Of a DNA stretch of 64,000 nucleotides, positions 36,479 through 64,000 are shown in pieces. Below the pieces are notes generated by a model. The model saw only the letters and a program-made list of their open reading frames with translations, had not been told where the DNA came from and made no database searches. The translations under genes and the position numbers were made by a program. Each line of letters opens with the position of its first letter. Within the stretch, counting starts at the first letter, position 1. This DNA comes from Candidatus Binatia bacterium (GTDB lineage: Bacteria > Desulfobacterota > Binatia > UBA1149 > CAITLU01), in assembly GCA_036493895.1 (NCBI GenBank), contig DASXOZ010000070.1:226868-290867 (forward strand), read 5' to 3'.

Positions 36479-38220
36479 GCAGGGCTCTCGCCGAGCAGCT
36501 GAAGCTCGTGAAGGCGCTTGTACAACGAGCCTTTCTCGAGAAGCTCGCCGTGGGTTCCGGATCCGACGATGCGGCCGTCCTCGACGACGAGGATGCGGTC
36601 GGCGCGGCGAACGGTAGAAAGCCTGTGCGCGATGACCAGTGTCGTGCGGCCCGTCATCAGACTCTCGACGGCGGCCTGCACCGCATGCTCGGATTCCGAG
36701 TCCAGCGCGCTCGTCGCCTCGTCGAGGATCAGCACCGGCGCGTCCTTCAAAAGAGCCCGCGCAATCGCGAGGCGCTGGCGCTGCCCTCCCGACAGCTGCA
36801 CGCCCATCTCGCCGATCACCGTGTCGTAGCCCGCGGGAAGCTTCTCGATGAACTCGTGCGCGAACGCAGCCTTGGCCGCTTCGATGATCCCGGCATCGTC
36901 CGCCTCGCTGCTTCCGTACGCAATATTGGCGCGCACCGTGTCGTTGAATAGGTACGTCTGCTGGGTGACGACCGAGACGAGAGCGCGAAGCGCCGCCAGG
37001 TCGAGGTCGCGAAGGTCGACTCCGTCGAGCGTGACGCGGCCGCCTGTCACTTCGTAGAAGCGCGGGATCAGGTCGGCGATCGTCGACTTTCCTCCGCCAC
37101 TCGGCCCAACGAGAGCAACGGCTTCGCCGGCACGGATCTCGAACTCGACGTCGTGCAGCACCTCGATGCTCTGGTACGCGAAGGACACTGCCTCGAAACG
37201 GATCGCCTCGCGAAGCGCCGTCACTTTGAGGCCGCTGCCGGCGCTGCCGTCGTCCTCCTCGGCCTCGTCGAGCAGCGCGAAGATGCGTTCGGCGGCGCCG
37301 AGCCCGGCCTGCACGATGTTGTTGGTGCGCGCGAGCTTCTTGAAGGGATCGTAGATCAGCACGAGCGTCGTCATGAACGCGAGAAAGCCGCCGGCCGTGC
37401 GCCCGCCGGCGAACACCGAGCCGCCGCCGAACCAGAGCGCCCCTGCAATGCCGAACGCCGCCAGCACCTCGGTCATCGGCGCCGTGAACGCGCCGATGCG
37501 CGCAGCTTTCAGGTGCAGGCGCCGCAGCCGCCGGTTCTCGCCTTCGAAGCGGCGTGTCTCGTAAGCCTGCATGCCGAACGACTTGACGACGCGGGAAGCC
37601 TGCACCGTCTCCAGCAGCAGCGCCGAGACGTCGCCGAGAGTGTCCAGGCCGCGGCGCGACAGCGTGCGCATGCGTCGCGACAATCTCTGGATCGGAAGGA
37701 CGATCACCGGCAGGACGACGAACGCAATGACCGAGAGCGCCGCGTCCAGGTGGAACGCGACTGCGATGAGCACGAGCATCGTCGTAAGGTCGCGGATCAG
37801 CGAAGCGGCACCTTCGGTCAGCGCCTGGCGCACGGCCAGCACGTCGCTCGTCATGCGCGAGACGATCTGCGCGGAGGTCGTGCGGTCGAAGAACGAGATC
37901 GGAAGGCGCTGGACCTTCTCCTGCAGTCGCGCGCGAATGTCGTAGACGATGCTCTCGCCCACCCAGTCTCCGAGGTAGGACTGGCCGAAATTCATTCCCG
38001 CCCGCGCGAGGAAGACGACGATGATCAGCGCAGGCAACAGGGCGAGCATGTGCTCGTCGCGGCGGCTGAAGACGTCGTCGATCAGGCCGCGCACGAGCCA
38101 CGGCACCAGGCCCGACATGCCGCTGTAGGCGATCATGCACGCCAGCGCCGCGGCGAAATGCGGCCACAGGTAAGGCCGCAGGTACGCGACGAGCCGACCG
38201 ATGGTGGCGCGCGTGCTCAG
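36475..38220 (-). CDS. msbA: Lipid A export ABC transporter (MsbA-type)
   Basis: 581 aa, matching MsbA's ~582. Six transmembrane helices (~10-300), then the ATPase: Walker A GPSGGGKST, Q-loop VTQQTYLFNDT, signature LSGGQRQRLAIARALL, Walker B VLILDEATSALD, and H-switch IAHRLST. It flips core-lipid A across the inner membrane. No ATG, GTG or TTG lies near the start; CTG 38220 overlaps the lpxB stop as CTGA with GGAG 8 nt upstream and gives the family length, so I infer a CTG start. The much longer open frame above it is antisense-type noise over lpxB. Confidence 0.9.
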   Translation of the reverse strand: MSTRATIGRLVAYLRPYLWPHFAAALACMIAYSGMSGLVPWLVRGLIDDVFSRRDEHMLALLPALIIVVFLARAGMNFGQSYLGDWVGESIVYDIRARLQEKVQRLPISFFDRTTSAQIVSRMTSDVLAVRQALTEGAASLIRDLTTMLVLIAVAFHLDAALSVIAFVVLPVIVLPIQRLSRRMRTLSRRGLDTLGDVSALLLETVQASRVVKSFGMQAYETRRFEGENRRLRRLHLKAARIGAFTAPMTEVLAAFGIAGALWFGGGSVFAGGRTAGGFLAFMTTLVLIYDPFKKLARTNNIVQAGLGAAERIFALLDEAEEDDGSAGSGLKVTALREAIRFEAVSFAYQSIEVLHDVEFEIRAGEAVALVGPSGGGKSTIADLIPRFYEVTGGRVTLDGVDLRDLDLAALRALVSVVTQQTYLFNDTVRANIAYGSSEADDAGIIEAAKAAFAHEFIEKLPAGYDTVIGEMGVQLSGGQRQRLAIARALLKDAPVLILDEATSALDSESEHAVQAAVESLMTGRTTLVIAHRLSTVRRADRILVVEDGRIVGSGTHGELLEKGSLYKRLHELQLLGESPA

Positions 38221-39374
38221 GCGACGAGCTCCAGGGCGAGCGCCGCGGCGCGGTCGGCGGCGCCGGGGCGGACGAGCAACGCGCGGATCTCGGCAAAGTC
38301 GGCCCGCATGCGCTCGCGCAGCGGCGCGTCTTCGAGGATTCGCGACAATTCTTCGCGCATTGCCTGAGGTTCGGCTTCGTCCTGGACGAGCTCGCAGACG
38401 ACGCGGCGGCCGAGCAGCAGGTTCGGCATCGCGATGAACGGCACGCGCACGAGGCGGCGCGCCACGGAGTAGCTGAGCGCAGACATCCGGTAGGCCACGA
38501 CCATCGGGCAGCCGACCAGCGCGCATTCGAGCGTTGCGGTACCGGAGGTCACCAGCGCCGCGTCGGCCGCCGCCAGCAGATTGTAGGTGTCGCCGCGCCG
38601 GCACGCGACATGGGCGGCTGCGGCCGGGTTGCGCGCTTTCCAGGCGTCGACGATGCCGGAAACGAGGCCGGAAGCGAGCGCCGGAGCTTCGGCGATCACG
38701 GCCGAGACGCTTCCGAGGCCGCTGGTCGCGTCGAGCATCCGCGGCAGCATCGCCTCGATCTCGCGGCGGCGGCTGCCCGGAAGAAGCGCAACGAGACGAC
38801 GGCCTTCGGCGATCCCGAGTTCGCGGCGCGTCTCGTCTCGAGGACGACTGGGCGCGACGGCTTCGGCCAGAGGATGGCCGACGAAGTGCGCGTCGATGCC
38901 GTGCGACCGGTAGATGTCGGCCTCGAACGGGAAGAGCACGAGCATGCGTCGCACGCTTTTGGCAATGGCGTCGATGCGCCCCTGCCTCCACGCCCAGACT
39001 TGCGGACTGACGTAGTAGAACACCGGCACTCCCGCGCGCGAAGCCGTCTTGCAGAGCGGGAGGTTGAAATCGGGAAAGTCGATCGGGATGAACAGGTCGG
39101 GGGCGCCGTCCGCCCCGCCGCCGCGAAGCTCGCGGCGAAGCCGGCGATGCGCGCCGACGACGCGAACGATCTCGCGCCCGAGCTCCGAAAAACCCATGAC
39201 GCTCAGCTCGGCGGTGTCGATGATGGTCTCGACGCCTGCTTCGCGCATCGCGGCACCGCCGGCACCGTAGAGGTGCAATCCGGGATCGGCGCGAAGCAAC
39301 GATGCTGCGAGCGCGCCGCCGAGTGCGTCTCCCGACGCCTCGCCGGCGACCATGAGTATGCGGCGGCGCTTCAT
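38217..39374 (-). CDS. lpxB: Lipid-A-disaccharide synthase
   Basis: 385 aa. Opens ILMVAGEASGDALGGALAAS, the hallmark of LpxB. Further landmarks: YVSPQVWAWRQGRIDAIAKS, FPFEADIYRSHGIDAHFVGHP, LLPGSRRREIEAMLPRML and VTSGTATLECALVGCPMVV. It condenses UDP-2,3-diacyl-GlcN with 2,3-diacyl-GlcN-1-P. ATG 39374 overlaps the preceding dehydrogenase stop as ATGA. Peripheral inner-membrane enzyme. Confidence 0.95.
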   Translation of the reverse strand: MKRRRILMVAGEASGDALGGALAASLLRADPGLHLYGAGGAAMREAGVETIIDTAELSVMGFSELGREIVRVVGAHRRLRRELRGGGADGAPDLFIPIDFPDFNLPLCKTASRAGVPVFYYVSPQVWAWRQGRIDAIAKSVRRMLVLFPFEADIYRSHGIDAHFVGHPLAEAVAPSRPRDETRRELGIAEGRRLVALLPGSRRREIEAMLPRMLDATSGLGSVSAVIAEAPALASGLVSGIVDAWKARNPAAAAHVACRRGDTYNLLAAADAALVTSGTATLECALVGCPMVVAYRMSALSYSVARRLVRVPFIAMPNLLLGRRVVCELVQDEAEPQAMREELSRILEDAPLRERMRADFAEIRALLVRPGAADRAAALALELVA

Positions 39375-40411
39375 GGCACCGGGTCGGCACCCGGCGCCGC
39401 GCCCGGATCATGTGCCGCCGCTTCGGCCGCCACGGCGCTGCGCACCCGTTCGGCCATGGCGAGCGCCACCAGCGCGTCGCGGCCGCTGACCGCCGCGTCA
39501 CTGCGCGACGACCGGCTTTGCGCGACGCCGGAGCCCGGCGCGATCGCCCGCACCGCGTCGACGAAGGCGCGGATTTCGTCGCGGAGCGGATCGGCATCTT
39601 CGGCGAAGCTGCGCTCCTCGACCTCAATCGCATCCATCGGTGCCGCCGGGTCGATCGCCGCGCCGGGCCTTCTTTTGACGATGCGCAGGCTTCGCGCATC
39701 GAAATCGACGGCGACGTATGCGTCCTCCTGGAAGATGCGCAGCCTTCGTTCCCTTTTGAGCGACACACGGCTGGCGGTCACGTTGGCAATCGCCCCGCCT
39801 TCGAAGCGGAGCCTCGCGTTGGCGATGTCGGCATGGTCGCTGAGCACGGGGACACCGATCGCTTCGACGTGGACGAGCGGCCGACCGACGACGAAGGCAA
39901 TCAGGTCGAGATCGTGGATCATCACGTCGAACACGACGTCGGTGTCCGACCCGCGGCCCGCGAACGGTGACAGGCGGTGGCATTCGATGAAGCGCGGGTG
40001 GCCGGCGATCTGCGGAAGATCCGCGAAGGCGGGGTTGAAACGCTCGAGGTGCCCGACCTGCAGCAGCACGCCCGCCTTCTCGGCCGCATCGACGATCGCG
40101 CGCGCGCCGTCGAACGTCGCGGCCAGTGGTTTTTCGACCAGTACGTGGACGCCGTGGTCGATCGCGACGCGCGCGACTTCCGCGTGCGTGGCCGTCGTCG
40201 TCGCGATGCTCGCGCAGTCGGCCTGGCCGAGAAGGGCATCGAGCGATTCCCACGCGCGGCAGCCGAGGCGCGCGGCAACTCCGGCCGCGCGCGCCGAATC
40301 GATGTCGTGGACGCCGACGAGCTCGACTCCGGCCGCCTCCGCGTATTTCGCAGCGTGAAGGCTGCCCAGGTGCCCGGCGCCGATGACTGCGGCGCGCACG
40401 CGATCAGTCAT
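39371..40411 (-). CDS. Gfo/Idh/MocA dehydrogenase in lipid A cluster (GnnA-like?)
   Basis: 346 aa. N-terminal Rossmann AVIGAGHLGSLHAAKY, cofactor-proximal VHVLVEKPLA (EKP motif), LERFNPAF, and VFDVMIHDLDLIAFV with the catalytic HD. Placed between lpxI and lpxB with overlaps on both sides (8 nt and ATGA). In Acidithiobacillus a relative, GnnA, oxidises UDP-GlcNAc at C3 so that GnnB can aminate it, giving amide-linked lipid A. No gnnB-type aminotransferase is present here. The role is therefore probable sugar oxidation in lipid A synthesis, unproven. Low-complexity Ala-rich C-terminus. Confidence 0.82.
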   Translation of the reverse strand: MTDRVRAAVIGAGHLGSLHAAKYAEAAGVELVGVHDIDSARAAGVAARLGCRAWESLDALLGQADCASIATTTATHAEVARVAIDHGVHVLVEKPLAATFDGARAIVDAAEKAGVLLQVGHLERFNPAFADLPQIAGHPRFIECHRLSPFAGRGSDTDVVFDVMIHDLDLIAFVVGRPLVHVEAIGVPVLSDHADIANARLRFEGGAIANVTASRVSLKRERRLRIFQEDAYVAVDFDARSLRIVKRRPGAAIDPAAPMDAIEVEERSFAEDADPLRDEIRAFVDAVRAIAPGSGVAQSRSSRSDAAVSGRDALVALAMAERVRSAVAAEAAAHDPGAAPGADPVP

Positions 40412-41294
40412 CGCTCAGGCCTGCGACTGCGCCGCTTCTCGTGCAGCCCAGCACTGCAATGCCGGCCTGGGACGCGGCTGTGGCGAGCGCTTCGCGCTCG
40501 AGCAGCAGCGTCGCGCCGGCTTCGATCGCCAGCACCGCGGCACGGGCTTCGACCATCGTCGCGATCGTGGCGGGGCCAACCGCCGGAACGTCAAAGCGCA
40601 TGTCCTGGCCGTGCTTGGACATCTTGATGACGGCGGCTCCCCCGCGTCCGAGCTTTCCCGCGCGTTTCACCGCCTCGTCGGTACCTTCGACGGCCTCGAC
40701 CGCGAGCACGACGCCGCGCTCGACGATGACGCTCTGGCCGACGTCCACCGAGCCGATGGCTTCGAGGACGCGGCAACCGGTGCGCACGTCGGCCAGGGCC
40801 TGGGACGACGGTTTCGGCCCGGCAAGGCGTCCGGGCGTTGCCAGCAGGCGTTCTAGGAACAGCGTGGAAGGAACCACTTCGATTCGTTCTTTTTCCAGCT
40901 CTGTCGCAAGCGCTCTCAGCAGGGCGTCGTCGCCGTGGCCACCGGCGCGGATCGCGCGGCGCAGGAACAGCATCCCGCGAAGATCGGGACGGATCTGCGA
41001 CAGCGAGCGGATCTTGTCGATGCCGCCGGCCATCACGGCGCGCGAGGCGCCTGCCTTGCGCAGCGCGCGGATCAGGTGGCCGAGCTGGCCGACGCGCACC
41101 CAGACGAGCTCGTCGACTTCGCCCTCGATGGCCTCGTCCGTCTCTCCGCGGTGCGCGACGGCCGCGACGCGAAGCCCGCGCGCCCGCGCCTCGCGAGCGA
41201 ACATCAGCGGAAAGCTGCCGTTGCCGGCAATGAGCCCGATCGTCTCGGGCGCACCCGGACTGCCGGGTGCGCCGGCTTCGCGCGGGCCGCTCAT
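40404..41294 (-). CDS. lpxI: UDP-2,3-diacylglucosamine pyrophosphatase LpxI
   Basis: 296 aa from ATG 41294 (ATGA overlap with lpxA). Features: IGLIAGNGSFPLMFAREARA near the N-terminus, VGQLGHLIRALRKAGASRAV with MAGGI, a central DDALLRALATELEKE, and C-terminal MRFDVPAVGPATI and GATLLLEREAL. LpxI (DUF1009) replaces LpxH in many alpha- and deltaproteobacteria, hydrolysing UDP-2,3-diacyl-GlcN to the 1-phosphate. No LpxH is seen in the window. Confidence 0.93.
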   Translation of the reverse strand: MSGPREAGAPGSPGAPETIGLIAGNGSFPLMFAREARARGLRVAAVAHRGETDEAIEGEVDELVWVRVGQLGHLIRALRKAGASRAVMAGGIDKIRSLSQIRPDLRGMLFLRRAIRAGGHGDDALLRALATELEKERIEVVPSTLFLERLLATPGRLAGPKPSSQALADVRTGCRVLEAIGSVDVGQSVIVERGVVLAVEAVEGTDEAVKRAGKLGRGGAAVIKMSKHGQDMRFDVPAVGPATIATMVEARAAVLAIEAGATLLLEREALATAASQAGIAVLGCTRSGAVAGLSDD

Positions 41295-42070
41295 CGGCAG
41301 ATTCCGCGCTGGGACTGCTCGATGAAGCGCACGAGGCTGGCCACGCACGGCTCGCTGTCGGCTTCGGCCCTGAGCTCCTCGAGCGCGTCCGCAAGCCGCA
41401 TGCCCGAGCGGAAGATGGTGCGGTACGCCGAGCGCAGCGCCGCGATCGTCGCGGCCGAAAAGCCGCGGCGACGAAGCCCGATCACGTTGAGCCCGTGCAG
41501 CACGGCGCGGTCGCCCGCCGCCATGCAGTACGGTGCGATGTCGAGCGTGACCATCGCGCCTCCGCCGAGGATCGCCGACTCGCCGATGCGCACGAACTGG
41601 TGGATCGCCACCAGCCCGCCGACGATCGCATGGTCTTCGATCGTCACGTGGCCTGCCAGCGTCGCGCCGTTGGCCATCACCACGTGGTCACCGACCAGGC
41701 AGTCGTGGGCAACGTGCGAGTACGCCATGTAGATGCCGCGGCTGCCGACGCGGGTGACGCCGCCTCCGTGTTCGGTCGCGCGGTTCATCGTGACGAACTC
41801 GCGGATGATGTTCTCGTCGCCGATCTCCAGGCGCGTCGGGCTGCCCTGGTACTTGAGATCCTGGGGAGGGCTGCCGATCGAGGCCTGGCCGATGATGCGG
41901 TTGCGCGCACCGATCGTGACCAGGCCGTCGATGACGACGTGCGGGCCGATCTCGGTGTCGGCGCCGACGTCGGCTCCGCCGCCGATCACGCAGTAGGGAC
42001 CGACGGTGACGCCGTCGCCGAGCCTGGCAGCAGGATCGACGACGGCGGTGGGATGAATGCGGGCGCTCAC
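41291..42070 (-). CDS. lpxA: UDP-N-acetylglucosamine acyltransferase
   Basis: 259 aa left-handed beta-helix. Starts SARIHPTAVVDPAARLGDGV with hexapeptide repeats through ~190, catalytic His in YSHVAHDCLVGDHV, and a C-terminal helical domain with GLNVIGLRRRGFS. It adds the first 3-hydroxyacyl chain to UDP-GlcNAc. The usual upstream neighbours lpxD and fabZ are absent: only 28 bp separate lpxA from skp. Confidence 0.95.
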   Translation of the reverse strand: MSARIHPTAVVDPAARLGDGVTVGPYCVIGGGADVGADTEIGPHVVIDGLVTIGARNRIIGQASIGSPPQDLKYQGSPTRLEIGDENIIREFVTMNRATEHGGGVTRVGSRGIYMAYSHVAHDCLVGDHVVMANGATLAGHVTIEDHAIVGGLVAIHQFVRIGESAILGGGAMVTLDIAPYCMAAGDRAVLHGLNVIGLRRRGFSAATIAALRSAYRTIFRSGMRLADALEELRAEADSEPCVASLVRFIEQSQRGICR

Positions 42071-42098
42071 AGCGGGGCGACCACCGCCCGGGTTCCCG

Positions 42099-42620
42099 TC
42101 AGAGGGACTTGTCCGCGAGCTGGATCACTTCGTCGGTGATGTCGGCCTTGTGCGAGATGTACAGCAGCGTGCCGGCATCCAGGACGAGGTCGTAGTTGTT
42201 GTCCTTGGCGAACTTCTCGATGACGGTGCGGAACTTGGTCATCATGTCGCCCTCGATCTGCTGGCGCGTCTTGTCGAAGTCCTGCTGGGCGTCTTCCTTC
42301 ATGCGCTTGGCGTCGGTCAGCTGCTTGTCGTACTCCTCGCTCAGCTTGGCCTTCTCTTCGTCGTTGAGCACGGCCATCCGCTTCTGGATGTCCTCCTGCA
42401 GCTTCTTCACATCGTCGGCTTTCTTCTGCAGCGACTTCTCGGCGGCGTCGGCCTTGGCCTTGAGCTTGGCGCTGGCCTCTTTTCCCAGCTTGCTCTCGGA
42501 AAGCAGCTTCGGCGTGACGATGTAGCCGATCTTCAGGTCGGCGGCCGAGGCCGGCCGCGCACCTGCGAGCATCGCGGCGGCCAGCACCGCGACGGTCGAA
42601 ATCACAATCCTCTTCTTCAT
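42099..42620 (-). CDS. skp: OmpH/Skp periplasmic chaperone
   Basis: 173 aa. Signal peptide (ISTVAVLAAAMLAGARPASA), LKIGYIVTPKLLSES, then a long charged coiled coil (~50-130; rich in KLKAKADAAEKSLQKKADD) and a compact C-terminal strand (YDLVLDAGTLLYI) as in Skp/OmpH trimers. It holds unfolded outer-membrane proteins for the BAM complex encoded immediately upstream (bamA, 23 nt away). Confidence 0.92.
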   Translation of the reverse strand: MKKRIVISTVAVLAAAMLAGARPASAADLKIGYIVTPKLLSESKLGKEASAKLKAKADAAEKSLQKKADDVKKLQEDIQKRMAVLNDEEKAKLSEEYDKQLTDAKRMKEDAQQDFDKTRQQIEGDMMTKFRTVIEKFAKDNNYDLVLDAGTLLYISHKADITDEVIQLADKSL

Positions 42621-56112: not shown

Positions 56113-56534
56113 CGCGGCCCCGCCAGCGCGGCTTCACGCTGCTCGAGGTGCTGATCGCGACCGCGATCCTCGGCATCGCGATCGTCACGCTGCTCGGCCT
56201 GCACGCGCGCAACCTCGCGCTCGCCGCCGAAGCCGAGCAGTTGACGGTGGCCGGCACCCTGGCCAGCGATGTGCTCGCGCTGGCCCAGCTCGATCCTGAA
56301 ATCGAGGAAGGCACGCTGCGCGGGACGTTCGCGCCCACGCGCGAGCAGTCGGACGGACAGGCGGTGATCTACGGCGGCGCGATGTCGGACCGTTACGTGT
56401 GGACGCGCGACGTGACGCCGACCGCGCTCGAGACACTCAAGCAGGTGCGCGTGCGCGTCTCGCTCGCCGGCGACGAGGACCACTCGCTCGCCGAGCTCTG
56501 GGCGGCTCTGCACGTGCAGGTGCAGCCGCAGTGA
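56109..56534 (+). CDS. gspI: T2SS minor pseudopilin GspI
   Basis: 141 aa. Short basic leader with cleavage at RG8/F9TLLEVLIATAIL and Glu13 at +5. The C-terminal domain is short with late strand VRVRVSLAGDEDHSLAEL. Part of the GspH-I-J-K tip complex. Stop overlaps the gspJ GTG start (GTGA). Confidence 0.92.
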   Translation: MTRPRQRGFTLLEVLIATAILGIAIVTLLGLHARNLALAAEAEQLTVAGTLASDVLALAQLDPEIEEGTLRGTFAPTREQSDGQAVIYGGAMSDRYVWTRDVTPTALETLKQVRVRVSLAGDEDHSLAELWAALHVQVQPQ

Positions 56535-57346
56535 CGCCCGTTCCGGTGCATGCGGCGGCGAGCCCCGCCTCGCACGAGCCGCAACGCGGCATGACGCTGC
56601 TCGAGCTTCTCGTCGCGCTGGCGATCTTCGCGATCGTCGGCGCCGCGCTCTTCCCGGTGATCAACGGGACGCTGTCGAGCCGCCGCGACGCCGTCGCGCG
56701 GCTGTCGCTCGACAACCAGGCGCGCGTGCTGGTCGACCGGCTCGAGCACGACATGGCCGGCAACTGGGACGACGGCATCCGCGGCCCGCTTCCTCCGCGC
56801 TTCCTCGCGCCGGAATCGGGCGGTCGCGACGTGCGCAGCGAGCGCACTTTGCTGGAGACGACGACGCTGATCGCGCGCGGAGTGACGCCCGTCGATGCGT
56901 TCATCGCCGGCGAGGACGTCGCGACGCTTTTCGTGGACCGCGGCGACCAGGCCGACGTGCTGTGGAGCTATGATTCGTCGGGACGGCTGCTGCGCCAGGA
57001 AGTGCGCCCACCCCAGGCGCTGCCGGTGGACTGGACGACGGTACCCGCCGAGGTGATGAGCGAAGGAGCCGACGTCGTGCTCGAGTTCTACGAAGTGGGC
57101 ACCTGGCTCGACTTCTGGGATTCCACCGAGACCGGACCTCATCACAACAAGGCGCCGGTCGCCGTAAGGACGACGGTGACGCTGGACGCGACGGGGCCGG
57201 CCACGGCGCCGCTCGAGCTCGTCTCGACGATCGTTCTTCCCGTGGTCGCGTCGGCGCCCGATTTCCAGCAGGCAAGCAGCAACCCGAACAACAATCCCGC
57301 CGGAGCGCACAAGACCACCGGCACCTCCACGGGCACGAAGAAATGA
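56531..57346 (+). CDS. gspJ: T2SS minor pseudopilin GspJ
   Basis: 271 aa from GTG 56531. Leader of 20 residues, cleavage RG20/M21TLLELLVALAIF with Glu25 at +5. A long beta-rich body and an Asn/Thr/Gly-rich tail (SSNPNNNPAGAHKTTG) extend past the usual ~200 aa. Tip-complex subunit. ATGA overlap with gspK. Confidence 0.92.
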   Translation: MTPVPVHAAASPASHEPQRGMTLLELLVALAIFAIVGAALFPVINGTLSSRRDAVARLSLDNQARVLVDRLEHDMAGNWDDGIRGPLPPRFLAPESGGRDVRSERTLLETTTLIARGVTPVDAFIAGEDVATLFVDRGDQADVLWSYDSSGRLLRQEVRPPQALPVDWTTVPAEVMSEGADVVLEFYEVGTWLDFWDSTETGPHHNKAPVAVRTTVTLDATGPATAPLELVSTIVLPVVASAPDFQQASSNPNNNPAGAHKTTGTSTGTKK

Positions 57347-58416
57347 CGCGGGCATCGCACATGGGAGCTCGCGGCCGCCGAGGCGAGCGCGGCGTCGCGC
57401 TGCTGCTGGCGCTGCTGACGATGGTGCTGATGACGGTCGTCGTCATCGAGTTCACGACGTCGAGCCAGGTCGAATACCGGCGCTCGGCGATGTGGGTTGC
57501 CGGCCGGCGCGCGGCGGCCGTCGCCGACAGTGGAGTGATGCTGGCCGGGGAAGTGCTGCATGCCGACTTCCAGCTCGGTATGACCGACTCGTTCCAGGAC
57601 ATCTGGGCCCGCGAGCTTCCGCCGATCGAAACCGGGGCCGGCCTGCTGACCGTGCGCATCGAGGACGAGCAGGGCAAGATCAACCTGAACAACCTCGGCG
57701 CCGGCACCAGGACGCGGGTTCGCGACCAGATCGAATCGCTGTTCGACAAGCTCGGCCTCGACCGCACGCTGGTCTCTCCGCTGGCCGACTGGATCGACTC
57801 GAACCACGAGCCGGAGTCGGGGCCTCTCGGCGCGGAAGACGCGTGGTACGCGAGCGTGAAGCCTCCGTACGCACCACGCAACGGACCGCTGCGAAGCTAC
57901 GCGGAGCTGGCGCTGGTGCGCGGCTTCACGCCGGCGATCCTGACCAAGCTGCGCCATTTCGTCTCGGTGCTGCCCGAGACGACGACCAAGGTGAACGTGA
58001 ACACGGCTTCCGCGGAAGTGCTGAGGTCGATCGACCCGAAGATGGACGACGAGTCGCTGGTCGAAAAGCTGATCGCGGCCCGCACGGCCGTCCCTTTCAC
58101 GAGCTCGGACGGGCTGAGGACGACGGGCGGGCTCGAAGCGATTCCGAAAGCGGACCTCGACCGCCTGTTCAGTTTCTCGAGCGACTGGTTCCGGGTGAGG
58201 AGCACCGGCGCCGCCGGCGACGCCATGCGTTCGAGCGAAGCGCTACTGCACCGCGACAACGGCGTTTCGACCATCGTCTATTTGCTCCCGCGCCGCGGAC
58301 CGAACATCGTCGGTGTCGACGGCTCGGCCCCGACCGGCATTACCGATGCCGCGCTGGCGGGCCAGGGCCCCGGCGGCTCACAGAACCTCACCGGGCAAGG
58401 CCCGGGCTTGCGATAA
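57343..58416 (+). CDS. gspK: T2SS minor pseudopilin GspK
   Basis: 357 aa. Leader ending RG17/V18ALLLALLTMVLM; Glu at +5 is absent, the known mark of GspK as cap of the pseudopilus. EDEQGKINLNNLG and the two helix-hairpin-like segments (KVNVNTASAEVLRSID) match the family. C-terminus is Gly-rich. TAATG overlap with gspL. Confidence 0.94.
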   Translation: MTRASHMGARGRRGERGVALLLALLTMVLMTVVVIEFTTSSQVEYRRSAMWVAGRRAAAVADSGVMLAGEVLHADFQLGMTDSFQDIWARELPPIETGAGLLTVRIEDEQGKINLNNLGAGTRTRVRDQIESLFDKLGLDRTLVSPLADWIDSNHEPESGPLGAEDAWYASVKPPYAPRNGPLRSYAELALVRGFTPAILTKLRHFVSVLPETTTKVNVNTASAEVLRSIDPKMDDESLVEKLIAARTAVPFTSSDGLRTTGGLEAIPKADLDRLFSFSSDWFRVRSTGAAGDAMRSSEALLHRDNGVSTIVYLLPRRGPNIVGVDGSAPTGITDAALAGQGPGGSQNLTGQGPGLR

Positions 58417-59819
58417 TGAGCAGCACGACCCTGACCATCTCGATCCACTCCGGTCGTGCCACCGGCGCCGTCATCGAGTCGAGCATCGGCTCGATGCACG
58501 TGGGCGAAGTGTTCGACGTGGCGTTCGAGGACGGGGAAACGCCGGTACTGCCGGTGGCCGGCCCGTTCGACCGCGTCGTTGCGACCATCGAGGCGGAAGC
58601 CGCGGCGTTCCGCGTGCTGACACTCCCTTTCCGCGACCGCCGCCGCGCTGCCCAGGCCGTCGGCCCCGCGCTCGAAGAGCACGTCCCTTACGATCTCGAC
58701 GACGGGGTCCTCGCGTGGGATTTCGCCGGCCCGGCGCCGGGCTCCGCCGCAGGTGCGACGGTGCTTGCCGCGATCGTCGACAGCGCGCGCATCGAGCAGG
58801 CCCGGCAGCGGCTTGCCGGCGCCGGCATCGAGGCCGCGCCCGAGCGCCTGCTGTGGGCTCCTTCGGTGATTCTTGCGGCGTACCGCCGCGCCGTCGGAGA
58901 GGACGCGACGTTCACCGCGGTCGACGCCGGTCCGGGCGGCGCAGTCATCGCGAGCTTCGATGCGGGGCGCCTCTGCGCTCTTCGCGTCGTCGCGCCCTGC
59001 GACGAGGAGCTGCTCTCGCGCAACATCTCGTGGTCGCTGGCAACGATCGGCGCCGACGAGGCGCGCATCGTGGTCGGCGGCACTTCGGCATCGCGCGTTT
59101 CGCGCTCCCTTGCCGCACGCCACGCAGGCGCGCACATCGAGGAGCTCCCGGCAAATTGCCCGGTCGAAGGCCTCGGTGCCCGAGACTGGCGAAGCGACAC
59201 CACGCTCGTCGGCCTGCTGCTGACGGCCAGCGGCGAAGGAATCGCGCCGCTTCTCGATTTTGCCGCGGAGGCATCTTCGCTGTTCGGCCTCGCGATCGTT
59301 CGCGACCTCCAGGACGAGGCACGGCCGCTCGTTCGATGGGCAGCGGCCGCGCTGGTGCTCGGCATCGTCGCCATCGGCATCGACTACGTGCAGCTGTTCG
59401 CCGAGCGAAGGGAGCTTGCCGCGCGCGCCGAGCAGATCTACTCGGCGGCGATGCCGTCGCCGAGCGGCGGAAGCGCGCGCAAGCTCAAGATGGAGATGCG
59501 CCTGAAGGAGCTCAACGCGAAGGCCGAGGCGGCTGCCCACGGCGGTGCCGCATCGCCGCTGACGCTGCTTTCGGCTCTTTCGCGCGACGTGCCGAAAGAC
59601 CTCGACGTCGTCGTCGATTCGGTGGACCACGCTCCGGCTGCGTCCAAGGTCACCGGCCACGCCGGCTCCTTTGAAAGCGTCACCAAGATGCAGGAGGCCC
59701 TGCAGAAGGGCGGCGCGTTCTCGCGCGTCGAGGTCAAGGACGTGCACGCGGCCGTGACCGGCGGCGGCGTCGATTTCCTGCTCGAGCTCGGCAGCACGGC
59801 GCGGGAGGGCGGCACGTGA
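58416..59819 (+). CDS. gspL: T2SS protein GspL
   Basis: 467 aa from ATG 58416. Actin-like cytoplasmic domain (~1-300), TM at ~305-327 (AAALVLGIVAIGIDYVQLF), then a periplasmic ferredoxin-like domain (~400-467). Recruits GspE to the membrane and pairs with GspM. The upstream open frame overlapping gspK is an artefact. GTGA overlap with gspM. Confidence 0.93.
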   Translation: MSSTTLTISIHSGRATGAVIESSIGSMHVGEVFDVAFEDGETPVLPVAGPFDRVVATIEAEAAAFRVLTLPFRDRRRAAQAVGPALEEHVPYDLDDGVLAWDFAGPAPGSAAGATVLAAIVDSARIEQARQRLAGAGIEAAPERLLWAPSVILAAYRRAVGEDATFTAVDAGPGGAVIASFDAGRLCALRVVAPCDEELLSRNISWSLATIGADEARIVVGGTSASRVSRSLAARHAGAHIEELPANCPVEGLGARDWRSDTTLVGLLLTASGEGIAPLLDFAAEASSLFGLAIVRDLQDEARPLVRWAAAALVLGIVAIGIDYVQLFAERRELAARAEQIYSAAMPSPSGGSARKLKMEMRLKELNAKAEAAAHGGAASPLTLLSALSRDVPKDLDVVVDSVDHAPAASKVTGHAGSFESVTKMQEALQKGGAFSRVEVKDVHAAVTGGGVDFLLELGSTAREGGT

Positions 59820-60370
59820 GCTCCGTGCCGCACCAGGCCCAGCTCCTTCTGGCGCGCCTGAGCCCTCGCGAGCAGAGGCTCGTCGCGATCTTCGGCAGCC
59901 TTCTCGCCGTCGTCATGGCCTGGTCGTTCGTCGTCTCCCCGTTCCTCGGCGGGCGCGATTCGGTGCGCCGCGACATCGCGACTCTTCGCGGCGAGCTCGG
60001 CGATCTCGAAACGCTGGCGCGGCAGATCCATGCAAGCGAGACCGATATGCCGAAGACCGGCGCGCCGGCAGCGGCAGCGGCCGATTTCTCGGTATTGGCG
60101 TTCGTGCAGAAGGCCACCGGTGCCACGCTGCGCGCGGAGTCGGTTGCATCGATGAGCCCGGCGCGGCGCGCTCTCGATCCCGGTCACCAGGAGAGCAGCG
60201 TCGAGTTGAAGCTCTCGTCGGTCACGCTCGGGGAGATCGTCGCGCTGCTGCGCGCGATCGAAGGGGAGCAGAGCCCGGTCTACGTCAAGCAGTTCTCGGT
60301 CAAGAAGCGCTATGACGACGCCTCCCACTTCGACGCGAGCCTGACCGCAGCCGCCGTGCTCCCGTCCTGA
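59816..60370 (+). CDS. gspM: T2SS protein GspM
   Basis: 184 aa from GTG 59816. Short cytoplasmic N-terminus with LSPREQRLVAIFG, TM ~23-43, coiled segment (~50-70) and a ferredoxin-like periplasmic domain. Partner of GspL. Eleven nt before gspN. Confidence 0.9.
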   Translation: MSSVPHQAQLLLARLSPREQRLVAIFGSLLAVVMAWSFVVSPFLGGRDSVRRDIATLRGELGDLETLARQIHASETDMPKTGAPAAAAADFSVLAFVQKATGATLRAESVASMSPARRALDPGHQESSVELKLSSVTLGEIVALLRAIEGEQSPVYVKQFSVKKRYDDASHFDASLTAAAVLPS

Positions 60371-60381
60371 ATCCACCTGCG

Positions 60382-61191
60382 ATGCGGTTTCTGCTGTTCG
60401 TCATCGCTTTCGCCATCGGCGTGTTGCTGATGGCGCCGCTCGACCGCTGGCTGCTGCCGCTGCTCAGGACTCCACTGGCTGCCGGCGGCGTCGATCTTCG
60501 CGTCGACACGCTGCGATTCGCGCTTCCTTTCGGGGTCAAGGCCACCGGCGTCGGCCTCGAAATGGACCTGGGAAGCCTCGACCTCGACTGGCTGTACTTC
60601 GGGATCACGCGCAGCTTCGAGGCCGAAGGCTGCGGCGGCCACATCGGCGGCAGCGTCGACGGCAGCTCGATTGCGGTGAACGTCTCGGGCGTGGATCTTT
60701 CGCGCTGCCTGCACATCGGCAAGCTCGAGGTCCAGAGCACGGTGGACGGCTCGGTCGAAGTGGAAGGATTCGATCCGCTGCGGCCTCTTCTCGGCGCGAC
60801 CACCGGCGCGAAGATCGACCTCACGTCGGGCGCCGGCGTCTTTCGCGGAACGCTGGTGCACGCTGCGGCCGACGGCAGCGACCTTCCGCTCGGCGAATGG
60901 GAATTCAGCGACCTCGTGCTGCGCGCGTCGTTCAGCAAGGGCGCCCTGACCGTGCAGGAGGGACATGCGAAGGCGAGCGGCGTCCAATGGGAGCTTCTCG
61001 GCGCCAACCTCCAGCATCCGGACGCCAAGGGCGGCCTGCGCGTCGATCTTCGCGCGCGAGCAGTCGAGGACAACCCGCGCTCGCGAGCGATGATTTCGAT
61101 GATGCCGAGGAGCCGCGCCGACGCCGACGGTTGGCACAACTACCGGGTCGTCGGAACGCTCTCTCAGCCGCGCGTGATCGGGCTGGAGTAA
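60382..61191 (+). CDS. gspN: T2SS protein GspN
   Basis: 269 aa. N-terminal TM (FLLFVIAFAIGVLLMAPL), then a beta-rich periplasmic domain resembling AsmA/GspN proteins. Last gene of the operon; its final 28 bases overlap the 3' end of the convergent lpxC fusion gene. GspN is non-essential in some systems. Confidence 0.85.
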   Translation: MRFLLFVIAFAIGVLLMAPLDRWLLPLLRTPLAAGGVDLRVDTLRFALPFGVKATGVGLEMDLGSLDLDWLYFGITRSFEAEGCGGHIGGSVDGSSIAVNVSGVDLSRCLHIGKLEVQSTVDGSVEVEGFDPLRPLLGATTGAKIDLTSGAGVFRGTLVHAAADGSDLPLGEWEFSDLVLRASFSKGALTVQEGHAKASGVQWELLGANLQHPDAKGGLRVDLRARAVEDNPRSRAMISMMPRSRADADGWHNYRVVGTLSQPRVIGLE

Positions 61192-62477
61192 CGCCCTCCG
61201 GCCTTCATCAGCTCGCGTATCCGCTTCACCATCGCGACGTTGTGCGAGTGCCCGGTCTTGCGCGCATGGATCTCGGCGCGCAGCGGCGCGCCGAGCAGGT
61301 AGAAGTCGCCGAGAATGTCGAGGATCTTGTGGCGTGCGAGCTCCTCGGGAAAACGCAGCGTCGTGTTCACGACGCCCTGCTCGCCGATCAGGATGAAGTT
61401 GCCGAGCTGCCCACCCTGCCCCAGCCCCGCACTCTCGAGCGCACGGATCTCGTCGACGAAGCCGAAGGTGCGGGCCGGGGCGATCTCGTGGCGGAAGTCC
61501 AGCGCATCGCGCATCGTGAAGACGTACGTCTGGTCGCCGATCGGCGGCGGATACGAAAGCTCGTACGTGACTCGCAAGCCGTCGTAAGGCCGCACCGACA
61601 GGAACTGGCCCGGCGCCGGGTCCATGCGCAGCTCGTCGGCCAGCTCGATCGACGTGATCGTCGCGTCCTGCTCGTCGATGCCGGCCTGCTCGAGCAGCTC
61701 GCACAGCTCGACCGCCGAGCCGTCGAGGATCGGAACTTCGCCTTCGATCTTCACGAGCAGGTTCGTGATTCCGTACGCGTGTAGCGTTGCCATCAAGTGC
61801 TCGACCGTGCGCACCGCCAGGCCCTTCTTGAAGAGCGTCGTGGCATAGCCCGTCGACTCGACGTTGCCGACGTCGGCCTCGACCTCGCCGGCCCCCGAGA
61901 CGCTGCTGAAGACGATGCCGCTGCCCGGCGGCAACGGCTGCAGGATGATCCCGGTGCGCGCACCGCTGTGAAGACCGAGCCCCGCGCCGACGACGGCGCG
62001 CGCCACCGTGCGCTGGCGCACTTCGCGGCCGGCCAGGATCGAGCCGGCGCTGCCGCGAAAGCGCGCGTCGCCCGAAGCGGCGTCGCTCTCGGCAGCTCCC
62101 GCCTCGCCGGGCCTCGCGCGGTGCAGGGCCCCGGAGATGGCCTCGAGCAGGCCCTCGATCGAGAACGGTTTTTCCATGAAGCCGATGGCGCCGAGCTTGG
62201 TGGCGCGCACGGCGGTCTCGATGTTTCCGTGCCCGGAGATCACGATGACCGGAAGATCCGCGTGGCCCTGGCGCAAGTGTTCGAGCACCTGGATGCCGTC
62301 CATTCCGGGAAGCCAGACGTCGAGAAGAACGAGGTCGGGCCTTTCTTCGCCGGCGCGCACCAGGGCCTCGTCCCCGTCGGCCGCGTAGCGCACGCGAAAC
62401 CCTTCGTCGCGCAGCACGGCGCCGATGCTGTCGCGCACGCCGGAGTCGTCGTCGACGATGAGGATGCTTTCGTCCAT
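61164..62477 (-). CDS. lpxC: Receiver domain - LpxC deacetylase fusion
   Basis: 437 aa. Residues 1-120 are an NtrX-like receiver: acidic pocket Asp9-11, phospho-acceptor Asp53 (LLDVWLPGMDG), Ser81 and Lys103 (EKPF). A ~30-residue Ala/Gly/Ser linker leads to a complete LpxC (~150-437): GLGLHSG at 166-172, Glu226-His227 (VEHLMATLHA), His383 and Asp387 (HKILDILGD), and His410 (KTGHSHN). These are the zinc ligands and general base of UDP-3-O-acyl-GlcNAc deacetylase, the committed lipid A step. LpxC is normally ~300 aa and stand-alone. No AAA+ or DNA-binding domain is present. ATG 62477 lies 2 nt after the NtrY-like kinase stop. Confidence 0.95.
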   Translation of the reverse strand: MDESILIVDDDSGVRDSIGAVLRDEGFRVRYAADGDEALVRAGEERPDLVLLDVWLPGMDGIQVLEHLRQGHADLPVIVISGHGNIETAVRATKLGAIGFMEKPFSIEGLLEAISGALHRARPGEAGAAESDAASGDARFRGSAGSILAGREVRQRTVARAVVGAGLGLHSGARTGIILQPLPPGSGIVFSSVSGAGEVEADVGNVESTGYATTLFKKGLAVRTVEHLMATLHAYGITNLLVKIEGEVPILDGSAVELCELLEQAGIDEQDATITSIELADELRMDPAPGQFLSVRPYDGLRVTYELSYPPPIGDQTYVFTMRDALDFRHEIAPARTFGFVDEIRALESAGLGQGGQLGNFILIGEQGVVNTTLRFPEELARHKILDILGDFYLLGAPLRAEIHARKTGHSHNVAMVKRIRELMKAGGRYSSPITRG

Positions 62478-62479
62478 GG

Positions 62480-64000
62480 TCAGGCGCGATGCTGCGCGTG
62501 CGTCGCAGGAAACTCAATCACGAAGCGGGTGCCGCGCGGATCGTTGGCGCGAACCCTGAGGTAGGCGTGATGGTCGGCGGCCATCGACGCGACAATGGCC
62601 AGACCGAGGCCGGTCCCCTCGGGCTTGGTCGAGAAATACGGCTCGAAGATGCGCGCCCTCACTTCGCGCGAGATGCCGGCCCCGGTGTCGGCCACCTCGA
62701 GGATCACGCGCGAGAGCGTCGGGTCGAAGCGCGTCGACACGTCGATGCGGCGCGGCTCGTCGGGCATCGCGCGCACGGCGGCGATCGCGTTCTCGACGAG
62801 GTTGGTCAGCGCACGTCGCACGGCGTCGCGATCCAGTCGCGCGGGCGGCAGGGAATCGGCCGCGTGGAATTGCACGGGGATGTCGGGATGCGACTGGCGG
62901 TACAGCGGCAGCGCTTCTTCGACGATGGGATTCAAGTCCTGCGGCGCCTTGTCGCCGCCGCCCATGCGCGCAAACTGCGAGAACTCGTTGACGAGCCTCT
63001 TGAGCCCGTCGACCTCGGCAACGATCGTCGAGACCGATTCGCGCACGACGTCGGCTTCGCCGCCGGAGAGCCGCCCGGAAAGCCGCCGCTCCAGGCGCTG
63101 CGCCGAAAGCTGAATCGGCGTCAGTGGATTCTTGATCTCGTGGGCAATGCGGCGCGCGACCTCGTGCCAGGCTTCCATGCGCTGTACCTGCTGGATCTGC
63201 GAGACGTCCTCGAAGAACAGCACGGTGCCGGAGACCGTATTGCCGCGGCGCAGGTTCGTCGCGGTCACGACCAGCGTGCGATCCTCGTCGCGACGAAAGT
63301 TGACGCCGCTGCCGGCCTCGCGCTGTCCGGCGCGCACGTCGCGCAGCAAGGAGACGACCTCGGGGATGCGCGCTTCTTCGAACACCGTCTCGGCGACGCG
63401 GCCGATCACGGCTTCCTCGCGCAGCCCCAGCATCGCCAGCGCCGCGGGATTGATCGTGCCGACGCGGCCGTCGGCGCCGATCGAGACGACGCCGGCGCCG
63501 ATGTTCGCGAGCACGTTCTCGATGTACGCGCGCCGCTCGTCGAGGGCTTCGCGGCCGCGCGCGAGCTGGGCGATCATCGTGTTGAAACCTCGCACCAGCG
63601 TGGCGACCTCGTCGCCGCCCTCCTCCGGCAGCGCGACGTCGAGGCGACCGGAGGCGACGTCGCGGGTGGCCTCGGCCAGGCGCCCGATCGGCTCGGTGAC
63701 GCCGCGGGCAAGGTACAGGCCCAGCCACGTCGCGGAAAACACGACGACGAAGGACGCCAGCAGCAGCGTGACGAGGTAGAGGTTCTTGAACGGCTGCTTG
63801 CTCAGCGTCAGGCGGCGAAATTCGCGGAAGGAATTGAGGATCTGGGAGCTCCAGGCGCGCGGGCTCTCGGCCACCGTCGTGTCGACGATCACGATCGCCG
63901 CGATCTTGCCGTCGCGGCTCGGCACGCTGGCGGCCCCGCGGATCACGTCGGTCGCGCCTTCGGTGTCCACGCGGGTCGGCGACTGCCCGTGGCGCACCGA
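62480..64000 (-). CDS. NtrY-like membrane histidine kinase, N-terminus beyond window
   Basis: At least 505 aa visible; an in-frame Met at 63997 may be internal, and NtrY kinases usually have a longer N-terminal sensor, so I treat it as cut by the edge. TM at ~75-95 of the visible part, HAMP (GVTEPIGRLAEATRDVASGR), PAS (~145-260), HisKA with phospho-acceptor in RIAHEIKNPLTPIQLSAQRL, and HATPase with NLVENAIAAV, DTGAGI and EGTGLGLAIV. This is the NtrY architecture, but the partner directly downstream is not NtrX but the receiver-LpxC fusion. Confidence 0.9.
   Translation of the reverse strand, partial: SVRHGQSPTRVDTEGATDVIRGAASVPSRDGKIAAIVIVDTTVAESPRAWSSQILNSFREFRRLTLSKQPFKNLYLVTLLLASFVVVFSATWLGLYLARGVTEPIGRLAEATRDVASGRLDVALPEEGGDEVATLVRGFNTMIAQLARGREALDERRAYIENVLANIGAGVVSIGADGRVGTINPAALAMLGLREEAVIGRVAETVFEEARIPEVVSLLRDVRAGQREAGSGVNFRRDEDRTLVVTATNLRRGNTVSGTVLFFEDVSQIQQVQRMEAWHEVARRIAHEIKNPLTPIQLSAQRLERRLSGRLSGGEADVVRESVSTIVAEVDGLKRLVNEFSQFARMGGGDKAPQDLNPIVEEALPLYRQSHPDIPVQFHAADSLPPARLDRDAVRRALTNLVENAIAAVRAMPDEPRRIDVSTRFDPTLSRVILEVADTGAGISREVRARIFEPYFSTKPEGTGLGLAIVASMAADHHAYLRVRANDPRGTRFVIEFPATHAQHRA

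Follow-up and report, generated by a model that had tools for sequence, protein, structure and literature searches.

An NtrX-like receiver fused to LpxC in Binatia, Nitrospinota and other lineages: a probable move of two-component control from the lpxC promoter to the enzyme

Introduction

Why does the LpxC of a Candidatus Binatia bacterium carry a phospho-receiver domain at its N-terminus? LpxC catalyzes the step that commits a cell to lipid A synthesis and that is kept in tight balance. The enzyme is an antibiotic target, and its known controls differ between lineages. In enteric bacteria it is controlled by proteolysis: the C-terminal tail of the E. coli enzyme bears an FtsH degron, and LapB both delivers and inhibits LpxC (PMC12444477). 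A review on how lipid A is regulated, published in 2025, placed two-component control of LpxC at the level of transcription only. The fusion lies near one end of a stretch of 64,000 nucleotides (GCA_036493895.1, contig DASXOZ010000070.1, positions 226,868 to 290,867), referred to here as the window. The original prediction, made from the letters alone, proposed that the receiver would let a histidine kinase set LpxC activity or stability directly, without transcription. Here, the reality of the fused gene, its distribution, its probable origin and its likely function are considered together.

The fusion gene and its surroundings

The fusion is encoded by one uninterrupted open reading frame of 437 amino acids with an ATG start (Table 1). 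The Pfam search identified a Response_reg domain (E 1.5e-31) and a complete LpxC domain (PF03331, E 2.7e-79, 266.9 bits against a cut-off of 27), and the NCBIfam lpxC model TIGR00325 scored 227.6 bits against its cut-off of 187.25, so the receiver and LpxC do share one chain, as predicted. PRK13188 (LpxC-FabZ) matched the LpxC part only. The AlphaFold model (mean pLDDT 86.7) contains two well-folded domains separated by residues 122-137, where confidence is low, and all 50 PDB matches listed for it were LpxC structures, with TM-scores by target of 0.81-0.93. Among the fused proteins the linker is poorly conserved and ranges from 21 to 65 residues, a variability that makes a rigid relay less likely and favors effects exerted through contact or dimerization.

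Table 1. Features of the window relevant to the fusion (coordinates in the window).
Feature	Coordinates	Strand	Basis
lpxB, downstream step of lipid A pathway	38217..39374	-	
lpxI, lipid A pathway	40404..41348	-	
lpxA, step before LpxC	41291..42070	-	
REC-LpxC fusion gene, sole lpxC of the genome	61164..62477	-	ORF, Pfam and genome search
LpxC deacetylase domain (residues 155-420); catalytic residues complete, C-terminal tail short	61218..62015	-	
Linker at residues ~120-150; disorder predicted at 122-137, sequence varies among relatives	62028..62120	-	
Receiver at residues 5-114, best matched by the NtrX receiver	62136..62465	-	Pfam and NCBIfam
Codon of phospho-acceptor D53 in the receiver	62319-62321	-	
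NtrY-family membrane histidine kinase, 772 aa, start beyond the window end	62480..64000	-	Domains NtrY_N-HAMP-PAS-HisKA-HATPase_c

Based on alignment to E. coli LpxC, residues E226, H227, T337, H383, K384, D387, D391 and H410 of the fusion correspond to E78, H79, T191, H238, K239, D242, D246 and H265. All of these were invariant in 66 of 66 fused LpxCs, apart from position 337, which is Thr or Ser. The receiver of the window protein has the pocket residues D9, D10, D53, S81 and K103; D9, D10, D53, K103 and P104 were invariant in all 65 fused receivers, which come from several phyla, and position 81 is Ser, Thr or Cys. Judged from these residues, the fused receiver looks phosphorylation-competent, and every residue named in the original prediction (D53, S81, K103, H227, H383, D387 and H410) was found as stated. 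Five positions of the LpxC domain (K243, T238, C259, E257 and Y309) separate fused from standalone enzymes, Lys243 being Glu/Asp in the latter. These signature residues are candidates for a surface contacting the receiver; no receiver-LpxC interface could be placed from them.

The fused enzymes also differ in their C-terminal tails: 14-33 residues (median 16) follow the last catalytic histidine, against 30-65 (median 47) in standalone LpxC, and the same alignment indicated that the window protein is without the E. coli-type LA..AVLA degron. A shorter tail fits a shift in control, and it is to be read as one or a few evolutionary events and not as a statistical sample, since the fused forms share one origin. 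The LapB zinc-ribbon profile also matches RadA-type zinc ribbons; it gave matches in Bacillus and other controls and does not tell LapB from RadA.

The genome is 98.9% complete, and a search of it for a second LpxC found none. The possibility raised with the prediction, that an ordinary second LpxC does the work, is thereby ruled out for this genome. As the only LpxC, encoded in the same window as lpxA, lpxI and lpxB, the fusion is very probably a working deacetylase. Between lpxI and lpxB lies a GFO/IDH/MocA oxidoreductase gene (39371-40411, minus strand), a spot occupied in some bacteria by GnnA, which belongs to diamino-sugar lipid A. The gene skp/ompH is followed directly by lpxA (41291-42620, minus strand), and lpxD and fabZ, which often sit between these two, are absent there. 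Type II secretion genes (gspJ/K/L-like, gspM and a Leptospira-type gspN; 56399-61191, plus strand) run towards the fusion gene, and gspN, on the opposite strand, overlaps the 3' end of that gene by 28 bp.

On its other side, the stop codon of the kinase gene is located 2 nt before the fusion ATG. The complete kinase, read past the window end, has an NtrY_N domain scoring over its cut-off, and the upstream order is ruvC-ruvA-ruvB-kinase-REC-LpxC (the ruv names come from inspection of translations only). A histidine kinase gene was found just upstream of the fusion in 30 of 30 loci read from the window's class. Outside this pattern, several relatives have the fusion without a kinase gene within a few kb (e.g., L128, L130-L135, L037 and L038).

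Distribution of the fusion

The search for proteins with Response_reg and LpxC domains that the original prediction had proposed was carried out across genomes, and the fusion was mapped to the window's class, its wider phylum, Nitrospinota, Nitrospirota and a small phylum represented by locus L033. Of the 148 genomes in the window's class, 140 gave a match to the profile of the full-length fusion; the protein is full-length in 133 of these and cut by contig ends in the remaining seven (four checked at the locus, three judged from coordinates). One class genome (G136) has a standalone LpxC as well, on a contig of 3 kb. Sampling 297 genomes across the phylum showed REC-LpxC in ~40 genomes outside the class, and longer forms of roughly 630-820 aa in 14. 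In Nitrospinota, the phylum to which the genome with locus L037 belongs, 65 of 77 genomes encode LpxC, each in a single copy. The open frame spans 460-797 aa in 62 of them, well above the length of a standalone LpxC. Short or partial frames account for the remaining three; of these, G508 (locus L164) was read, and a contig end truncates it. All 10 of the 65 Nitrospinota loci that were read (L159-L168, with L164 cut) are fused. The fusion is thus class-wide in the window's class and nearly phylum-wide in Nitrospinota. It was further found in 4 of 5 genomes of the L033 phylum and in 10 of 246 Nitrospirota genomes, where horizontal transfer is likely.

Beside the fusion, a second, ordinary LpxC occurs only in some Nitrospirota (the two genomes tested) and in a few members of the window's phylum (among the loci with both forms are L035, L036 and L136/L137), which raises the question of whether one cell may hold two differently controlled deacetylases. 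In one phylum member (L127:1226-2653, minus strand), a gene for a single-domain receiver of ~124 aa immediately precedes a standalone lpxC, and this pair may represent a receiver-LpxC link that arose independently.

An assembly or frameshift artefact joining two genes had been named as the outcome that would undo the prediction. Nothing in the window points to one, and its probability is practically nil given that 133 genomes of the class, and members of other phyla besides, have the fusion at full length; these many independent genomes rule it out, and the partial class members stop at contig ends. A sign of the kind was seen in one relative (L112:818-3061, minus strand), where a stop codon splits the receiver from AAA-LpxC; the close relative L113 is intact, and the split is possibly a sequencing error or real.

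Relationship of the fused receiver to NtrX

The best receiver model for the fusion was that of NtrX (NF051870, 136 bits over residues 4-122), followed by FixJ (102) and NtrC (87). Based on Pfam, the window protein has neither the AAA+ domain with its GAFTGA loop nor the Fis-type HTH of NtrX. In Methylomirabilota, Desulfuromonas, Smithella, Acidobacteria and others, lpxC, an NtrY-like kinase gene and a full NtrX gene (REC-AAA-HTH) are separate neighbors. Intermediate fused forms are also found: Nitrospinota hold REC-AAA-HTH-LpxC, REC-AAA-LpxC (L161), REC-HTH-LpxC (L163) and REC-LpxC (L162), and other lineages hold intermediates too. A remnant of the NtrX HTH precedes LpxC in 13 of 16 long forms (E 1e-10 to 1e-17, while shuffled sequences reached no better than 3e-3). 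Among REC-AAA-LpxC proteins, 16 of 16 have lost the sigma54-contacting GAFTGA loop as well as the Walker B glutamate and the Arg finger, and Walker A is kept; the long forms of Nitrospinota are likewise decayed at the AAA motifs.

Phylogenetic analysis of the LpxC domain placed the fused enzymes and 28 standalone ones on the two sides of a branch with 100/100 support. Rooting on E. coli gathered the fused enzymes into a single clade (SH-aLRT 100). The standalone sequences used had been chosen for their similarity to the query or drawn from the phylum sample, and some branches are long. The receiver tree was poorly resolved. The simplest history suggested by these comparisons would be one fusion of a whole NtrX to LpxC, followed by repeated loss of the DNA-acting domains, and the receiver of the window protein is, on this sequence evidence, what remains of NtrX. 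The original prediction was right about the fusion and about a receiver that looks competent, and had missed the NtrX origin, the spread across the class and nearly all of Nitrospinota, and the REC-AAA-HTH-LpxC forms.

Sigma54 control of unfused lpxC

A strict sigma54 -24/-12 site was scanned for in the 250 bp upstream of each LpxC gene. Such a site precedes 18 of 27 standalone lpxC genes, at a distance of 40-117 bp from the domain, where 0.04 were expected, and none of the 65 fused genes. Nor was it found at any of 71 ntrX genes or 33 kinase genes adjoining lpxC, and a search for a sigma54 promoter across the window and a 10-kb stretch reaching about 7 kb beyond it gave no match. The sigma54 gene rpoN is encoded in this genome and in 38 of 39 genomes searched, which rules out genome-level loss of sigma54 as the reason for the change. 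Unfused lpxC is probably driven by sigma54, and the fused lineage lost the promoter together with the contact loop. In unfused relatives, lpxC is thus probably turned on through sigma54 and the adjacent NtrX, whose role as the activator at these promoters we infer from gene order and family. For the proposal of control without transcription, the presence of the promoter at unfused lpxC genes, its absence at fused ones and the loss of the contact loop in the intermediates offer strong indirect support.

Proposed mechanism and alternative explanations

It is likely, in our assessment, that an NtrX-derived receiver sets LpxC output according to whether it is phosphorylated; it would take its signal from the NtrY-like kinase encoded upstream, in a circuit descended from sigma54 control. 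In the ancestor, lpxC, ntrY and ntrX would have been neighbors, with lpxC under a sigma54 promoter and NtrYX probably switching the gene on. An in-frame fusion of ntrX to lpxC would have come next, and the promoter and the sigma54-contact loop would then have been lost; in the window's lineage the AAA+ and HTH domains would have gone too, leaving REC-LpxC. At present, the NtrY-like kinase would sense an envelope signal and phosphorylate D53, most likely raising or unlocking LpxC activity, either directly or via receiver dimerization, much as phosphorylated NtrX would formerly have increased expression of lpxC. Activation or relief of inhibition seems likelier than repression, given that sigma54 activators, NtrX among them, switch their targets on. 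The sign could nevertheless be the opposite one: in Rhodobacter sphaeroides without NtrYX, lpxC transcripts were up 8.8-fold, indirectly (PMC7240162), an effect opposite to the proposed activation. Three further observations weigh against the mechanism, namely that the disordered linker gives no sign of a rigid relay, that some fusions are without a kinase gene nearby, and that two Nitrospirota genomes carry a fused and an ordinary LpxC together.

The receiver could instead steer the amount or place of LpxC and leave catalysis alone, through a protease (FtsH, Lon or ClpXP) or through docking to the membrane or the kinase, much as RssB-type receivers steer proteolysis. A flexible linker would suit a delivery tag, a new handle would be useful where the long degron-bearing tail is gone, and proteolysis of LpxC, with LapB as both deliverer and inhibitor, is established in enterics (PMC12444477). 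No protease tag or adaptor was identified, and the loss of the tail may be a single historical event; we consider this explanation unlikely, while giving it more credence than the two that follow. That the receiver is a structural leftover, kept for dimerization or solubility on a constitutive LpxC, would agree with the unconserved linker and with the fused lineages whose kinase gene is not adjacent. A vestigial receiver is hard to reconcile with a phospho-site (D9, D10, D53 and K103) kept in every fused receiver while the adjoining AAA domain eroded at motifs needed for its function, or with the kinase gene upstream at every class locus read, and it appears improbable. Less probable still is that the receiver mainly serves the kinase, as a phosphate sink or by letting the substrate state of LpxC tune NtrY signaling to other regulators. 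In its favor, the NtrY kinase sits in the membrane, at the envelope, and other members of the phylum keep unfused copies of the system; against this, the fusion-profile search of the window's genome gave one match, with no second close NtrX-like receiver and hence no other obvious partner. Direct phospho-control through D53 is accordingly the explanation we prefer.

Relation to known systems and implications

The fusion shares its LpxC domain, catalytic residues and fold with the enzymes of E. coli, P. aeruginosa and Aquifex. It differs from E. coli-type LpxC, otherwise described as stand-alone, in its added N-terminal receiver and in its short tail. With NtrX of the NtrYX system it has in common the closest receiver and an NtrY-family kinase upstream, whereas NtrX acts on DNA through its AAA+ and HTH domains and the output of the fusion is an enzyme. 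LpxC-FabZ (PRK13188) is also a two-domain protein, but its partner is a second enzyme at the C-terminus and not a signaling domain. Among response regulators with enzymatic output, such as CheB and those with RpfG-type HD-GYP or PleD/WspR-type GGDEF domains, the phosphorylated receiver sets the attached enzyme, as proposed for the fusion; their outputs act in signaling or chemotaxis, whereas that of the fusion is the committed enzyme of an essential biosynthesis. A two-component link to lpxC was reported in Desulfovibrio vulgaris, where lpxC is the single mapped target of the response regulator DVU2934 (PMC3333781). This resembles the proposed circuit, but DVU2934 is a separate protein acting at the lpxC promoter. 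In the open literature searched, which included few subscription journals and no bioRxiv preprints, a REC-LpxC or NtrX-LpxC fusion was not described. Receiver-driven enzymes are a known kind, and LpxC as the output is new as far as this literature goes; a prior mention, for example as a database domain architecture, is possible.

More broadly, and with slightly more reserve than for the mechanism itself, we regard it as probable that a transcription factor became joined to the enzyme whose gene it had controlled and then lost the domains that act on DNA, so that sigma54-dependent transcription gave way to direct phospho-control of LpxC in Nitrospinota and in a large deltaproteobacteria-like group. 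If this is true, the NtrY-like kinase would be, as far as the literature searched shows, the first to act on LpxC itself. The living intermediates would show a regulatory link moving from promoter to protein, and control of outer-membrane growth would become testable in marine nitrite oxidizers (Nitrospina).
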